IMG/VR virus record: IMGVR_UViG_3300045996_001542
Coordinates: 1-53,077 of that record
DNA length: 53,077 nucleotides
Strand: one strand, 5' to 3'
From: a virus
Numbering within the stretch: the first letter of the stretch is position 1; each line of letters opens with the position of its first letter. The position numbers were made by a program, and so were the translations under genes. This document shows positions 1-53,077 of the stretch, piece after piece. Below the pieces are notes generated by a model. That model ran no database searches. It saw nothing but the letters and a program-made list of their open reading frames with translations, and had not been told where the DNA came from.

Positions 1-226
1 CCGTAACCACGTGGTCGACGGCCCACGCGACACGCTCACTCGGCGCAACGCTGGCAGGGACGTTCGGCAGTGCCGCGCGGGCGAACCGCGCCAAGCGCGG
101 GCGAATGTGCTCCGCGCGCATGCGGTCGATCCGCGCGGCGAGACGGACAGCAGTGTTGATCCGGTCGCAACCCGGGGTCACACATTCGCCGCTCGGTCGG
201 GCGAACGTGCACTCGTGTCTTTCCAT
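1..226 (-). CDS. Partial hypothetical protein, C-terminus beyond the window
   Basis: A leftward reading frame starts at ATG 226-224, with an AAGGGA ribosome site about 10 bases upstream, and runs open to the window edge, giving at least 75 residues. The product begins MERHECTF and has three early cysteines (ECTF, ECVTPGC) that could bind a metal, followed by an arginine-rich helical stretch. I do not recognise the family. It lies downstream of the 333-1055 gene on the same strand and is probably in the same boxA-led transcript. The frame is real by start signal and codon use; the function is unknown. Confidence 0.6.
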   Translation of the reverse strand, partial: MERHECTFARPSGECVTPGCDRINTAVRLAARIDRMRAEHIRPRLARFARAALPNVPASVAPSERVAWAVDHVVT

Positions 227-332: not shown

Positions 333-1055
333 CTACTTCTTTGCGGACGCCTTTGCGATGTCGGACAGGGCCGACACGGTGTCACGGAACAGCGAACGTT
401 CCGCTACGTCCATCTCGCCTACGCGGCTACCGAGTTCCTTGCCGATTGCGGCCAGGTACGAAAGCAGCGTGTTCGTGTCCGCTTCGGCGATGGGGAACCG
501 CTCCGCCGTGTCCGTGGGCACGTTGCCCGCTTCCGCGTCCGTCTCGGACAGCGTGCTGTCCTTGTCGGTCCCGTCGTTGGGCTTGCCCGTGCGCTTCTTG
601 TCCTCGCGCGGCGGGACGGGCGTGGACAGCCAAGCAACGTGCTTGTCTGTCACGTCCGAGATAGCAGCGATCTTTTCGACCGCTGCCTTGATTGCCTCTC
701 GCCCACCCTTGCCAGCGTTGTAGATCTTGGCTACGTGAGCCCAGACCCGCGCGTTGTCACGGATGTCAGCATCGGTCCGGAACTGCAGACCCGATGCGGT
801 GAGAGCGGCGAGACGTGCACGCGGCTGTCGCATCGCGACACCCAACGCGTGGCCGATTGCGTTGTCCGACAGGACAGCGCCCCCAGCGTCCAGCCAGCGC
901 CCGGAGAGCGCTACGGCTGTCACGTCTCGCAGTGCGCGCCCGTAGGCGCTCTTTGTGTCCGACAGGGCCACCATTGCGGCGCCCGTGTCGTGCTTGATTG
1001 CCGCTCCTGCCTCGCTGTTGAAAGCGGACAGAACGGTCTTAACCGTTGTTGCCAT
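333..1055 (-). CDS. Hypothetical phage protein, 240 aa
   Basis: The start ATG at 1055 follows a GTGGAG ribosome site. The product is mostly alpha-helical: an Ala-rich N-terminal half with a WAHVAKIYNAGKGG stretch near residues 104-117, a polar low-complexity linker (about 145-190, rich in D, K, T and E), and a C-terminal helix ending in Lys-Lys. No signal peptide or membrane segment is seen. Codon use is less GC-skewed than in the structural genes, suggesting a different origin. It is the first gene after the leftward promoter and boxA leader at 1172-1320, so it is likely the first gene of an antiterminated early transcript. I cannot assign a function. Confidence 0.75.
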   Translation of the reverse strand: MATTVKTVLSAFNSEAGAAIKHDTGAAMVALSDTKSAYGRALRDVTAVALSGRWLDAGGAVLSDNAIGHALGVAMRQPRARLAALTASGLQFRTDADIRDNARVWAHVAKIYNAGKGGREAIKAAVEKIAAISDVTDKHVAWLSTPVPPREDKKRTGKPNDGTDKDSTLSETDAEAGNVPTDTAERFPIAEADTNTLLSYLAAIGKELGSRVGEMDVAERSLFRDTVSALSDIAKASAKK

Positions 1056-1082
1056 TGGTTACTCCACTTCTGGGATAGAGCA

Positions 1083-1101
1083 CTCCCGCATAGCGCGGGA
1101 G
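1083..1101 (-). other. Leader hairpin upstream of the 1055 gene
   Basis: Perfect 7-bp stem CTCCCGC / GCGGGAG with a 5-base loop, in the 5' untranslated leader of the leftward transcript, 28 bases before the start codon. No U-tract follows, so it is more likely an RNA leader element or weak attenuator than a full terminator. Confidence 0.45.
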
Positions 1102-1171
1102 CGCACGTGTCATGCATGCGTGAGTGACGCACAAAGCGCCACGACAGGCACACCACTACCCCAGACCAGGG

Positions 1172-1200
1172 AATCCACTGTGCAGTTCTCAAACAACCGT
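1172..1200 (-). promoter_or_regulatory. boxA-like antitermination element (rRNA-leader type)
   Basis: Read leftward, this segment contains TTGTTTGAGAACTGCACAG, close to the boxA/nut-like sequence that precedes 16S and 23S rRNA genes in Streptomyces and relatives, where NusB/NusE bind nascent RNA and make polymerase resistant to termination. It lies between a candidate promoter (1292-1320) and the gene starting at 1055, with a GC-rich hairpin (1266-1282) in front, the same order as in rRNA leaders. The resemblance is from memory of the motif, not from a search. Confidence 0.6.
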
Positions 1201-1265
1201 GGTCTCACCCGGAGCACTTGACGCGGTCGATCACTCGGCCGCGCCGACCCCCGGGAGGGCCGTCC

Positions 1266-1282
1266 GGCCCCACGTGGGGGCC
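1266..1282 (-). other. GC-rich hairpin before boxA
   Basis: GGCCCC / GGGGCC with a 5-base spacer containing ACGT. It lies just after the predicted transcription start and before boxA, in the place a boxB-type hairpin would occupy. Confidence 0.4.
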
Positions 1283-1291
1283 AGGTCTGCG

Positions 1292-1320
1292 ACATTACCC
1301 GTATTCGGACATTGCGTCCA
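1292..1320 (-). promoter_or_regulatory. Candidate leftward promoter
   Basis: On the minus strand TGGACG (1320-1315) is followed after exactly 17 bases by TAATGT (1297-1292), a good match to the actinobacterial sigma-70 pattern TTGACN-17-TANNNT. Copy 1 of the 17-bp dyad lies 8 bp upstream of the -35 box, a suitable position for control. Predicted only. Confidence 0.5.
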
Positions 1321-3665: not shown

Positions 3666-3775
3666 GCGCCCAGGACGAGGAGGTCACGTGCCCACGCTGC
3701 GGCCGTGACCACATCCCCGACGAGGACCACGACACGTGCGTGGAGTGCCTTGACGGCCACGGAGACGACGAGTGA
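3662..3775 (+). CDS. Minimal zinc-ribbon protein, 37 aa
   Basis: GTG 3662 overlaps the previous stop as GTGA, and its own stop overlaps the next start. Two CxxC knuckles (CPRC at 10-13, CVEC at 26-29) separated by an acidic His-containing loop form a complete zinc ribbon. It could contact nucleic acid or another protein. Coupling and the intact four-Cys pattern argue it is real. Confidence 0.6.
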   Translation: MSAQDEEVTCPRCGRDHIPDEDHDTCVECLDGHGDDE

Positions 3776-4506
3776 ACACCATCCCGGAGCTGTGGAACAC
3801 GACCGAGGTCGCCCGGTTCCTCGGCATCAAGCCCACCTCGGTCAGCGCATACCGCATCCGCGGCCAGATGCCACCCCCGGTGCAAACAGTGGGGAAACAG
3901 ACCCACCTGTGGGACGCTGACACGATCCGGGCGTGGCACGCACAGCGCCCCGGGACACCCGAGAGTGAGACATCGTTGACGAAGCGCCACCCCGCCGACT
4001 GGTCGAAGACCCTCGGCATCACCGTCGTCGACCCCGACGGCTGGCGCGCAGACGGTGCGCCGTGGGACCGCGCGATCACGCAGGAGGAGTTCCGCCGCCG
4101 CGCCGCGATGAGCACCGTGTCAGAGCTCGTCGAGCCCGACCTGGACGTGATGAGCGAACAGGAGCGCGCCGCGTACTACGAGGAGAACGTGCACCGGCTG
4201 GACGAGCTGTTCGACACGGACAACCCCGTCCAGTTCGAGCGCTCCGAGGTCAAGATGACGAACTACGCCGTGGCGCCGGGGGAGTACATCACCGAGTGGC
4301 TGGAAGAGCAGCACACGGACCCCACCCTGCTCGCGTGGCGGCTCGGGGTGCCCGACGCGTACGTCGCGCACCTCCTCGCCGGCAAGATCGCGCTGTCGCA
4401 GCCGTTGCAGGCCGCGCTGGCGGACATCACCGGGATCCCCGTGGACTCCTGGGCGCGCCTGGACACCCAGTACTGGAAGGACAAGGCACGGCTGGAGGGG
4501 CAGTGA
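3772..4506 (+). CDS. Two-domain HTH protein: excisionase/MerR-like HTH plus HigA-like antitoxin domain
   Basis: 244 residues from GTG 3772. Residues 5-55 (TTEVARFLGIKPTSVSAY, then RGQMPPPVQ and HLWDADTIRAW) match the winged HTH of excisionases and MerR-type proteins. The C-terminal third (about 165-244) reads PGEYITEWLEEQ..LLAWRLGVPDAYVAHLLAGKIALSQP, the XRE fold of HigA-type antitoxins, ending in the typical DTQYWKDKARLE helix. No HigB-like toxin lies next to it; the following gene is another XRE protein. It may be a regulator in the lysis-lysogeny or early switch, or an orphan antitoxin that neutralises a host toxin. Confidence 0.65.
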   Translation: MNTIPELWNTTEVARFLGIKPTSVSAYRIRGQMPPPVQTVGKQTHLWDADTIRAWHAQRPGTPESETSLTKRHPADWSKTLGITVVDPDGWRADGAPWDRAITQEEFRRRAAMSTVSELVEPDLDVMSEQERAAYYEENVHRLDELFDTDNPVQFERSEVKMTNYAVAPGEYITEWLEEQHTDPTLLAWRLGVPDAYVAHLLAGKIALSQPLQAALADITGIPVDSWARLDTQYWKDKARLEGQ

Positions 4507-35759: not shown

Positions 35760-36727
35760 GTGGCCTTCTTGGGGGCGCGCACGGGGCGCACGTCGATGCG
35801 GGTGTAGGACTTGCGGGTGTAGCCGTTGATGAACGTCTCGGGGACCTCGGTCCAGGTCACGGAGTGCTTCCCGGTGGACCCGTAGACGCCGTCGAGCTTC
35901 TTCTGCGCGGCCTCTTTCAGCTTCTCGCCCTCGCGGACCATGTCGCGGCCCTCGCGGTACTGGGCCTCGGCGTCCAGGAGGGCCGGGTCGGTGATCAGGC
36001 CGCCCTGCTGGTGCTCGTCGCCGCCTCGGCAGGCGTTGAACATGGGGCAGTACCGCGCGCAGTACGGGTAGGGCTCGTCCCGGGGCGCGGAGGACAGGTC
36101 GTACTGGGCGGCGTACATCGCGTCCTCGAGCCGGGCCTCGACCTGTGCGGTGATCTCCGGGTCGTACGGGCTGGAGATGACGACGATGTTCTCGTCCTCG
36201 CCGGAGCGGTCGATGTAGATCAGGGACCACTCGTCCTCGGGCGTGGCCAGGCCCTGCTGGATGCGCGCGAGCTGGTAGGTGTTGATCTGCGCGACGTGCT
36301 TGAAGTCGGCGCCGTTGCGGCGGGTGTCCGCCAGGCCGTCCTTCGTCTTCGCGTCCCACACGCGGGGCCCGACGACCAGGTCGGCGTGCCCGGAGATCTC
36401 CACGCCCAGCCCAGGCAGGCGCGCCGTGAGCGGCACCTGCTGCTGCGCGGCCGGCCCGATGGTCTTGGCGAGGTGGGCGATGACGGCGCGCTCGGTCAGC
36501 TCACCCACGGCCTCCCCGACGAACGCGGCCAGCTTGATGCCCTCCTCCGGCAAGCGCTCGGTGCCGGCGATGGTGTGCGCGATGTACGCGCGGCACGCAC
36601 CGATCTCGGACGGTCCGAGCAGGCCCTGGTCGGACTGCTGGGAGCGGTCAGACTTCGTGGTCCAGTCCCGGATCGACTCGGTGACGACCTCCTTGACGTC
36701 CAGGCCCTCCAGGGCCTCCACCGTCAC
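35756..36727 (-). CDS. Cas4/RecB-like PD-(D/E)XK exonuclease with Fe-S cysteines
   Basis: 323 residues. The nuclease core shows GHAD (D116), VWDAKTK (D125, K127) and the RecB motif QINTY (Q147, Y151). Four cysteines, C45 and CARYCPMFNAC (C223, C227, C233), have the spacing of the iron-sulfur cluster in Cas4 and AddB nucleases. It would resect DNA ends to expose single strands for the annealing protein encoded just upstream (4-bp overlap), a Red-like recombination pair. A long charged C-terminal helix follows. Confidence 0.8.
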   Translation of the reverse strand: MTVEALEGLDVKEVVTESIRDWTTKSDRSQQSDQGLLGPSEIGACRAYIAHTIAGTERLPEEGIKLAAFVGEAVGELTERAVIAHLAKTIGPAAQQQVPLTARLPGLGVEISGHADLVVGPRVWDAKTKDGLADTRRNGADFKHVAQINTYQLARIQQGLATPEDEWSLIYIDRSGEDENIVVISSPYDPEITAQVEARLEDAMYAAQYDLSSAPRDEPYPYCARYCPMFNACRGGDEHQQGGLITDPALLDAEAQYREGRDMVREGEKLKEAAQKKLDGVYGSTGKHSVTWTEVPETFINGYTRKSYTRIDVRPVRAPKKAT

Positions 36728-37674
36728 TGGGAGTCCTCCATGACCTGGATCTCGTCGTCCATGACGTAGTCGGGGTGGCCCGGTCCCCAGCCCGGCTCGG
36801 TGAGCCCGACGTGCTGCTCGGCGGCGGCCAGGGCTTGGCGGGCGACGGCCTGCCGGTCTGCGCTGACCGACTCGGCGGGTGCGGCCTTGCGGGTGGAGCC
36901 CTTGCGCTTGGTCTGCGCGGCGGGGCGCTGCCCGGTCTCGATGCGCTGCGCTGCGCGCTCGGCCTTGGCGATCTCGGCGGCCTCCCGCTCGGCGTTGGCC
37001 AGGGCCTTGGCCACCGGGCCCTCGACGGTGGCCACGTGGGTCACGGTGGGCTCGACCACCACGGCGGGCGACTCGGTGACCGTCGCGGCGGGGTGGACCT
37101 TCATCACGGCCTGCAGCCGCTCCCGTGCGGTCACGCCCTCGGGCGAGTCGACGCGCGAGGTGTTGATCAGCGCGACCGTGTCGGCCTGGTCGGGGGACAG
37201 CACCGTCTTGACGACGTCGGTGATGCGCCCGTCGGCGTACAGGGACAGGCCGAACTGGGTGCCGAGGTAGATCGCGGCGCGCTTGAGCGCGTCGGACTCG
37301 GCGGACTTGAGTGCGGTGTCGGCGGCCTCACCCCAGTCAGGCTGCTTGTTGTTCGCGATCGCGGACTCGGTGTAGACGGCGCCGGTCTGGTGGATCGTCA
37401 GGCGCACCGTGGCCTGCGCGGAGATGGACCAGTTCATCTTGTCCGGGTTGCGGGCCTGCGGGATCTGCTCCTCGCGGATCACCTTCGCGTCCAGGCACTC
37501 GGCGGAGAACCCGGCGTAGCCGAACACCCTGATCAGGCTGGCCTTGACGTCCCACGCCTCCAGGTAGGACATGCCGTCGCGGCTGGCGACCCGGTCCTTG
37601 TTGATGTTGTTGTGCAGGGTCCGCAGCTGGGCCGTGCTCAGCGCGGTGGTCGTGGGGGACTGCTCCATGTCCAT
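36724..37674 (-). CDS. Rad52/22-like single-strand annealing protein
   Basis: 316 residues from ATG 37674 (GGAA upstream). The N-terminal 165 residues carry the Rad52-type core: MSYLEAWDVKASLIRVFGYAGF, SAQATVRLTIHQTGAVY, and DTALKSAESDALKRAAIYLG followed by TQFGLSLY, the classical signature. The C-terminal half is low-complexity and basic (QTKRKGSTRKAAP), probably for DNA or SSB contact. It pairs with the Cas4-like exonuclease in the next gene for strand-annealing recombination, likely needed for replication or repair of phage DNA. Confidence 0.8.
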   Translation of the reverse strand: MDMEQSPTTTALSTAQLRTLHNNINKDRVASRDGMSYLEAWDVKASLIRVFGYAGFSAECLDAKVIREEQIPQARNPDKMNWSISAQATVRLTIHQTGAVYTESAIANNKQPDWGEAADTALKSAESDALKRAAIYLGTQFGLSLYADGRITDVVKTVLSPDQADTVALINTSRVDSPEGVTARERLQAVMKVHPAATVTESPAVVVEPTVTHVATVEGPVAKALANAEREAAEIAKAERAAQRIETGQRPAAQTKRKGSTRKAAPAESVSADRQAVARQALAAAEQHVGLTEPGWGPGHPDYVMDDEIQVMEDSQ

Positions 37675-37701
37675 GGGTTCCGTTCTACTCGGGGTATCTG
37701 A

Positions 37702-37722
37702 CACCCGCCCGGGGGGCGGGTG
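37702..37722 (-). terminator. Hairpin after vapC
   Basis: CACCCGCCC / GGGCGGGTG, 9-bp perfect stem with a 3-base loop, 5 bases past the vapC stop. It separates the toxin-antitoxin pair from the Rad52-like gene. Confidence 0.6.
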
Positions 37723-37727
37723 GGGGT

Positions 37728-38138
37728 TCAGATCAGGTTGATGGTGGGTACGCCCACCTTGGCAGCGGCGCCCGCCAGGCGCTTGTCGAACGTCATGAGG
37801 TCGCCGTCGAACCACATCGCTGCCGCCAGGACACACGCGTCAGGCATCTTGACGCCCGTCCTCTGCCGTGCCTCGACCAGGAGATGTATCTCCTCGTCAG
37901 GCTCCAGGTTGCAGATGCGCAGGTCCGCGCCCCAGATCAGGCGGTCGTAGATCTCGTTCCGCTCGGTCGCGTCGTCGTACCCGACCAGGACCTCGGCCAA
38001 GGTCAGGCGGTGGATCTCCGCGATCTTTCCCCGCGCGTCGGGCAGGAGGTCGCCAAGGGCGTCAAGGACGGGGGCGTGGTGGACGTGGTGAGGATCGAGC
38101 AACGCGATCATGATGTTCGCGTCCAGGACCACGCTCAC
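37728..38138 (-). CDS. vapC: PIN-domain toxin (VapC-like)
   Basis: 136 residues from GTG 38138, overlapping the antitoxin stop as GTGA. Four conserved acidic residues of the PIN ribonuclease are present: D6 (VVLDANIMIALLD), E49 (LTLAEVLVG), D100 (KMPDACVLAAAM) and D118 (MTFDKRL). VapC toxins cleave tRNA or rRNA and stop growth when the antitoxin is lost. In a phage this could stabilise a plasmid-like prophage, block superinfecting phages or shift host translation. All key residues are intact, so it is probably active. Confidence 0.85.
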   Translation of the reverse strand: MSVVLDANIMIALLDPHHVHHAPVLDALGDLLPDARGKIAEIHRLTLAEVLVGYDDATERNEIYDRLIWGADLRICNLEPDEEIHLLVEARQRTGVKMPDACVLAAAMWFDGDLMTFDKRLAGAAAKVGVPTINLI

Positions 38139-50026: not shown

Positions 50027-50242
50027 CTAGCGGTAGTACGACGAGAACGGCAGATCTTCGCCGTACTTTTCGACGTAAGAGTCCACAGCGTTACGCAAAC
50101 TCGTGTCGTCTGCATCCGGACCAGAGCGCCGGTACGTGATCGTGGCCTCCACGACCTTGAACATGTCTGCCGCTGCCGTATACGTCTCGTCGTAGATTTC
50201 CGCCAGTTCAGCGAACTGGTATTCGGGAATGCTGTCGCTCAT
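50027..50242 (-). CDS. Small acidic protein, 71 aa
   Basis: ATG 50242 overlaps the previous stop (ATGA). Highly acidic with aromatic residues (EYQFAELAEIYDETYTAAADMF, DSYVEKYGEDLPFSSYYR) and no cysteines. Small acidic phage proteins often mimic DNA or bind host enzymes (for example anti-restriction or Gam-like factors), but nothing here proves that. Confidence 0.6.
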   Translation of the reverse strand: MSDSIPEYQFAELAEIYDETYTAAADMFKVVEATITYRRSGPDADDTSLRNAVDSYVEKYGEDLPFSSYYR

Positions 50243-50811
50243 CGGGTCTCCCGCACGGGCACGTCGGTGGCGACCTGCTCGTCGGTGGCCACCGTGACCG
50301 GCGGGAGCGAGGTGGTGGTCACCACGGTGGAGTACTGGCTGGCCGGGACGAAGTGGATCCGGTCGGCCAGCGCCTGGTCCGACTCCTCCGTCGACCAGCT
50401 CGCGACCGCCTTGCCCTCCGGCGCGTACACGTGCTTCTTGGTGGAGTGCCCCAGGCGCAGCGTGCACCGGTAGGTCTGCCCGCCGAGGAAGGTGCGCGAG
50501 ACCAGGCACAGCCCGGAGTTGAGCACGTCGCGCAGCGCCTTGACCTCGCCGTCAGTCGCCATCTCGTCCTCGTGGGGGTCGGTGTCACCGGTGTGGACCA
50601 CCGTACGCCCGCCCTCCGACACGAACACGTCCCACGCCCCGGACAGGGTCACGCTGTGGCCCGCCTCTGCGGCCCCCGCGTAGTGGTAGGCGAACGCGCC
50701 GACCGTGGCCGCGGACGAGAACCCGTCGGGGTCCATGAACGCAACCTCGCCCGCGTCGATCCGACCCTGCGCGTACGCCTCGGCGGCGATGAACTCTCTG
50801 GTGATTTCCAT
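50239..50811 (-). CDS. Hypothetical protein, 190 aa
   Basis: ATG 50811 follows AACGGAGCACAG. An N-terminal helix (REFIAAEAYAQGRIDAG), a middle beta part (GHSVTLSGAWDVFVSEGGRTVVHTG), then CLVSRTFLGGQTYRCTLRLGHSTKKHVYAP, which recalls a Cys/His ligand-binding loop, and a Thr/Val-rich tail (STVVTTTSLPPVTVATDEQ). Unknown; soluble. Confidence 0.6.
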   Translation of the reverse strand: MEITREFIAAEAYAQGRIDAGEVAFMDPDGFSSAATVGAFAYHYAGAAEAGHSVTLSGAWDVFVSEGGRTVVHTGDTDPHEDEMATDGEVKALRDVLNSGLCLVSRTFLGGQTYRCTLRLGHSTKKHVYAPEGKAVASWSTEESDQALADRIHFVPASQYSTVVTTTSLPPVTVATDEQVATDVPVRETR

Positions 50812-53052: not shown

Positions 53053-53077
53053 GGCTCTTCCTCCTTCTGGGGGGGGT
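53053..53077. other. Right window edge
   Basis: Holds the ribosome site of the 53052 gene, then a run of eight G. If the window ends are joined, the truncated gene at 1-226 continues through this run and stops 27 codons further on, inside the start of the 53052 gene. Confidence 0.4.

Follow-up and report, generated by a model that had tools for sequence, protein, structure and literature searches.

The leader of the leftward operon in the phage DNA analysed here carries an element, TTGTTTGAGAACTGCACAGTGGA, that is identical at 23 of 23 nucleotides to the boxA/boxC signal ahead of actinobacterial 23S rRNA. The element recurs at the head of early operons in many other phages, and from within boxC onward the leader is complementary to a trailer behind the first gene, in the register found in the host. 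We consider it probable (roughly 60%) that host Nus factors acting on boxA/boxC give read-through of the operon, and that the leader-trailer helix brackets gene 1 and is perhaps cut by RNase III.

Genomic context and leader architecture

The window, meaning the whole stretch of DNA analysed, is the entire IMG/VR record IMGVR_UViG_3300045996_001542 (53,077 bases, GC about 70%). Its structural genes (terminase, portal, tape measure) run rightward, a leftward early block lies at the right end of the record, and further leftward genes lie at 1-1055. A 12-kb extent of the leftward operon presupposes joined ends of the linear contig. In a hypothetical end-to-end join the reading frame stays open for a few codons only, which speaks neither for nor against joined ends. 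The record finishes (53060-53077) in a run of eight G and T, and may thus stop at an assembly break and not at a natural terminus. The annotated phage collection contained no close relative. The host is an actinobacterium whose genus the element does not fix, because the element is identical in Streptomyces, Nocardia, Rhodococcus/Prescottella, Kitasatospora, Cellulomonas and others.

The features of the leftward leader and its surroundings are as follows.

1327 to 1345, no strand assigned: palindrome TCGCGTAACCGTTACGCAC, just upstream of the promoter; probable operator
1292 to 1320, minus strand: putative leftward-operon promoter, TGGACG-17-TAATGT; by sequence, a weak consensus match
1216 to 1284, minus strand: 5′ part of the leader, with two strong hairpins in the predicted fold
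1174 to 1196, minus strand: boxA/boxC element TTGTTTGAGAACTGCACAGTGGA, identical to the actinobacterial 16S-23S spacer element
1188 to 1178, minus strand: boxC-like part GAACTGCACAG, within TTGTTTGAGAACTGCACAGTGGA
1153 to 1185, minus strand: leader arm CTGCACAGTGGATTCCCTGGTCTGGGGTAGTGG of an inverted repeat, running from within boxC onward
about 1080 to 1104, minus strand: hairpin GCGCTCCCGC-GCTAT-GCGGGAGTGC, upstream of the gene 1 ribosome binding site
333 to 1055, minus strand: gene 1, 240 aa (723 nt), ATG at 1055; no known family; enclosed by the helix
279 to 311, minus strand: trailer arm, 21 nt past the gene 1 stop codon, complementary to the leader arm
2 to 226, minus strand: next gene of the leftward operon, running off the contig

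Inspection of the sequence recovered every piece named in an earlier sequence-only reading of this DNA: the promoter, a GGCCCC/GGGGCC hairpin directly downstream of it on the minus strand, the element, a second hairpin and a gene start. The promoter was not called by a consensus scanner, a tool not designed for actinobacterial promoters; the boxA-bearing locus L137 has TTGACA-17-CAGTGT in a comparable place. The whole leader folds better than 200 of 200 shuffles (z -3.6). Within it, TTGTTTGAGAACTGCACAGTGGA is the sole match in the record at up to 3 mismatches and lies downstream of the putative promoter and upstream of the genes, with boxA about 120 nt ahead of the gene 1 start codon. Rfam searches returned no family at the gathering score, and the weak matches were all implausible. 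A terminator scan of the minus strand gave few and weak candidates, with no U-tract terminator standing out; the target of antitermination would most likely be Rho-dependent termination.

The palindrome upstream of the promoter is one of nine near-perfect copies of GTGCGTAACSGTTACGCAC dispersed through the record (1327-1345, 13775, 34885, 41509, 43170, 46463, 48334, 51895 and 51938), against 0.01 expected, and the set resembles the dispersed operators or stoperators of a temperate phage. Between the divergent operons, at 1490-1831, direct and inverted repeats cluster around GTTTCGAGTACCCGTTACGGGGT in what looks like a control or origin region.

Protein family scans gave no match for the gene 1 product or for most early proteins. 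The sequence-only reading had proposed that the host system takes the place of an N or Q protein; among the scanned proteins, most early ones of which match no family, no known antiterminator family (N- or Q-like) was found. Gene 1 had no relatives in viral contigs or among phages, and the early gene at 50239-50811 had none in viral contigs. A single-sequence structure model of the gene 1 product (pLDDT 41) was too poor for use. Elsewhere in the window, 36724-37836 encodes a Rad52/Rad22-type recombinase (Pfam PF04098 and a PHROG recombinase).

The element is identical to the host signal before 23S rRNA

A genome-wide pattern scan with the 23-mer returned at least 120 exact matches, and all 80 loci examined are 16S-23S spacers. 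The 23S gene was identified by motif search in 72 of them and by a visible 23S start in the other 8, and the element typically stands 58-61 nt before it. The match is thus to the signal before 23S. These 80 spacers bear out the sequence-only reading in its claim of an rRNA-type boxA in the leftward-operon leader, and narrow its statement that such a boxA precedes 16S/23S genes: the rRNA type stands, but the exact match is to the element before 23S and includes the NusA-binding boxC.

Both parts of the signal have known partners. In E. coli, boxA is both necessary and sufficient for recruiting the rRNA antitermination complex, and boxC is located in the rrn leader-trailer helix. Anchoring at boxA has been proposed to aid formation of this helix by keeping boxC close to the RNA exit until the trailer appears (PMC10250234). 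NusA of M. tuberculosis binds boxC-like RNA, and boxC is also part of an RNase III duplex (PMC6614801).

Recurrence in related phages and other actinophages

A terminase scan yielded 80 related loci, in whose 1.0 Mb of DNA a boxA-like element was sought at up to 3 mismatches. Four loci (L162, L163, L201 and L233) carry it, each in the leader before the first leftward gene, on the minus strand and 5.6-6.2 kb before the terminase, the distance in the window being 6.09 kb. The reversed control pattern, also allowed up to 3 mismatches in the 1.0 Mb of related phage DNA, gave no matches against these four syntenic ones. Place and strand are kept, while the DNA around boxA has completely diverged between the window and the four relatives; L162 and L163 are near-identical to each other, with a terminase 53% identical to that of the window. 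Homology among the first-gene products of the window, L163, L201, L233 and a further locus, L296, is undetectable. Many other terminase relatives with enough upstream sequence carry no boxA, so its presence among relatives is patchy. Near their boxA, L162 and L163 have two copies each of GTTATCCCGGGATAAC. L233 has 11 copies of a different palindrome, GTCCAAGCTTGGAC (252, 761, 1124, 1566, 1974, 2706, 2937, 3766, 6169, 9903 and 15948), one of them between boxA and gene 1.

The conservation in related phages that the sequence-only reading had set as its test holds at the same place in four relatives, and it extends to the early leaders of many actinophages. BLAST searches of annotated actinophages, using the window or a consensus rrn sequence as query, gave near matches that are nearly always annotated "none", on the early-operon strand and shortly before the first gene. 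Noncoding leaders with boxA were found in Streptomyces phages (FlowerPower, HaugeAnator and Gilson), in the large Sujidade/Pavo group, in Mycobacterium phages (Kumao, Bongo, Estes, Ugenie5, Superchunk and Yecey3), in Nocardia phage P3.1 and in Corynebacterium phage Stiles. The conserved core TTGAGAACTNNANAGTG spans boxA and boxC, and boxA stands about 90-500 nt before the first gene of these early operons. The Sujidade annotation places a hypothetical protein across the element, on the other strand. A match in Keanu, ending 5 nt before a CDS, was not counted. phiC31 has no boxA better than 4 mismatches, which is chance level, so boxA is not universal among actinophages.

In IMG/VR, the pattern TTTGAGAACTNNANAGTGG occurs in 26 loci and its reverse in 32, so raw counts alone show no enrichment and only GC and context separate the two: 17 of the 26 boxA loci have a GC of at least 0.55, against 2 of the 32 reversed ones. 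The 28 loci found with a third pattern, TTGAGAACTCAAYAGTGNG, are almost all GC-rich and set in leader-like surroundings. Nine matches (L004, L006, L010, L138, L141-L144 and L149) lie in DNA of low or intermediate GC or within long ORFs and look like chance. Other matches fall inside phage tRNA arrays (L158:8242-8260, with 22 tRNA genes, and L152:906-924) or, in L136, among tRNA genes, and boxA may also serve structured-RNA operons of phages. A literature search on boxA or antitermination in actinophages, with most subscription journals outside its reach, found nothing.

A predicted long-range helix encloses gene 1

The sequence-only reading missed a 33-nt inverted copy of the leader at 279-311, and with it a helix around gene 1. 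In a repeat search, the inverted repeat 279-311/1153-1185 (33 nt, 85% complementary) ranks first among the 235 inverted repeats of the window. Without gaps it scores 28.3 for pairing, a value that none of 150 shuffles reaches (highest, 18.7), and its duplex energy has a z of -6.7. When pairing from flank to flank was scored for 29 window genes, gene 1 led with that score and the runner-up reached 14.6. On the plus strand the trailer arm has CTGCACAGTGG but lacks TTTGAGAA, and so is not a second boxA.

The helix starts in the same register as that of the host. In host precursor 23S rRNA, the pairing partner of the leader from CACAGTGGACGCG onward is the 23S trailer, which lies about 3.1 kb further on. 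In 37 of 40 host loci this helix begins at element offset 10-13 or earlier; the window helix begins at offset 11. Two other phage loci share the arrangement, with 26-nt helices that begin at offset 8 in L163 (trailer 50 nt past the gene 1 stop) and at offset 11 in L296 (trailer 10 nt past the stop). L296 has no terminase similarity to the window in the locus DNA examined. The arms of both differ in sequence from those of the window, yet they pair. For L163, RNAduplex alone was not distinctive (z -0.2) and it is the ungapped pairing score that singles the locus out. Of the eleven pairs that allow comparison across the window, L163, L296 and host 23S, 5 differ at both positions, and pairing holds in 96% of cells. 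This result supports conservation of the pairing without proving it, since the trailers were selected for complementarity and the test is partly circular. Strong terminator-like GC hairpins lie on the minus strand of L163, between the gene 1 stop and the trailer arm, and in L296 at about 3775-3810, after the trailer arm; both sit where read-through would matter.

A test for helices in the boxC register across 58 boxA loci found a convincing one in only about three (the window, L163 and L296), so the helix is not needed wherever boxA is used, and most phages use boxA without it. No trailer was seen in L233, and the L201 sequence is too short for the test. L281 was dropped because its trailer falls within an ORF, although the complementary arm does pass the shuffle test. 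L153 has arms around gene 1 and was not counted, as related repeats abound there and another gene scores higher; its genome is rich in GGACATATCC-like repeats, with complementary arms flanking more than one gene.

This rarity bears on the alternative that we take most seriously, although we regard it as unlikely: boxA antiterminates, and the 33-nt repeat is a separate thing. It could be an element for RNase III or for stability, a DNA repeat bound by protein, or the two ends of a cassette, invertible or mobile, with gene 1 inside. Besides the majority of boxA phages, which have no such helix, L137 fits this view, as its 29-nt helix around gene 1 starts after boxC rather than inside it. Against it, the window, L163, L296 and host 23S share one register, with the arm beginning inside boxC. 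In L163, 4 of the 5 departures from identity still pair as G-U, and family scans of the gene 1 product found no recombinase domain.

Proposed mechanism and remaining alternatives

We infer an order of events that leads from Nus binding through antitermination to possible RNase III cutting. The leftward transcript would start near 1284, so that the rRNA-type signal is made at once; host NusB-S10 would bind boxA and NusA would bind boxC. RNA polymerase would then become termination-resistant, as on rRNA operons, and the early leftward operon would be read through. Meanwhile the Nus-bound leader may be held near the RNA exit and handed to the trailer as this emerges, whereupon the RNA from boxC onward (1185-1153) would pair with the trailer (311-279) behind gene 1. 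The resulting helix of about 33 bp would bracket gene 1 and probably serve as a substrate of RNase III, whose cut could separate, release or protect the gene 1 message. We advance a broader proposal more tentatively, at somewhat less than even odds: actinophages in general rely on the host rRNA antitermination signal for their early operons, and a subset (the window, L163 and L296) has copied the whole pre-23S arrangement around a protein gene, whose mRNA would be made and excised like rRNA.

A role for boxA mainly in the translation or stability of gene 1, rather than in read-through, seems improbable to us. It would resemble the Nus complex on E. coli suhB, whose boxA-dependent repression is known (PMC5725501), and it would suit a helix that brackets exactly gene 1. 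In the window, though, boxA lies some 120 nt before the start codon, and elsewhere it heads whole early operons whose first genes are unrelated and in some cases 250-500 nt away. We give still less credence to the idea that the leader RNA is a decoy for NusB, S10 and NusA, or pairs with the host 23S trailer, and so damps host rRNA synthesis early in infection. The phage arm does keep CTGCACAGTGG, complementary to host 23S trailers, but this complementarity is short compared with the 33 nt shared with the phage's own trailer, and L163 and L296 have drifted from the host sequence while keeping their own pairing. Least probable of all is a functionless relic of a host rRNA spacer acquired by recombination, or a chance match: 23 nt identical to host DNA with an abrupt end on both sides might suggest a relic, but the same place and strand in relatives with completely diverged flanks, the recurrence in many unrelated phages and the failure of the reversed pattern to recur in GC-rich phage DNA count against it, and chance is rejected by the 80/80 spacer identity, the reversed-pattern control and the GC split.

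Read-through by host Nus factors, if true, would offer a host-factor-only route that explains how long early operons are read in mycobacterial, streptomycete, nocardial and corynebacterial phages, and would make NusB, S10 and NusA a set of host factors central to infection. It would also provide a compact natural system for testing whether boxA holds the leader until the trailer appears, a step that has been proposed for ribosome assembly but is not yet settled there. Cutting of the helix, if it occurs, would make this an mRNA processed like an rRNA.

Comparison with known systems

Most of what is known about antitermination in phages comes from lambdoid phages with N, Q or put. In lambda nutL/nutR with N, as in the window, an early leftward phage operon opens with a boxA-type signal ahead of its first gene. 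The boxA of the window differs in being of the actinobacterial rRNA type, and no N-like protein was recognised among the window proteins scanned, most early ones of which match no family. We know of no leader-trailer helix for lambda nutL. In HK022, put is an RNA fold that acts on polymerase directly, without an rRNA-type boxA; the window phage would work alike if its own leader RNA brings about antitermination with no phage protein involved.

Outside rRNA, an rRNA-type boxA is also found in CRISPR-array leaders. The E. coli suhB leader likewise contains boxA outside rRNA, and there the Nus complex represses suhB (PMC5725501). Both cases share with the window the recruitment of an rRNA-type boxA to a non-rRNA transcript; they differ in being chromosomal genes for which the literature consulted describes no bracketing helix.

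With actinobacterial pre-23S rRNA, the window shares the same 23 of 23 nucleotides, a helix that starts inside boxC at the same offset, and a transcribed unit bracketed by that helix. The unit is a 723-nt protein gene in the window and about 3 kb of rRNA in the host; the window's leader arm differs from that of the host beyond boxC, and the trailer arm is the phage's own.
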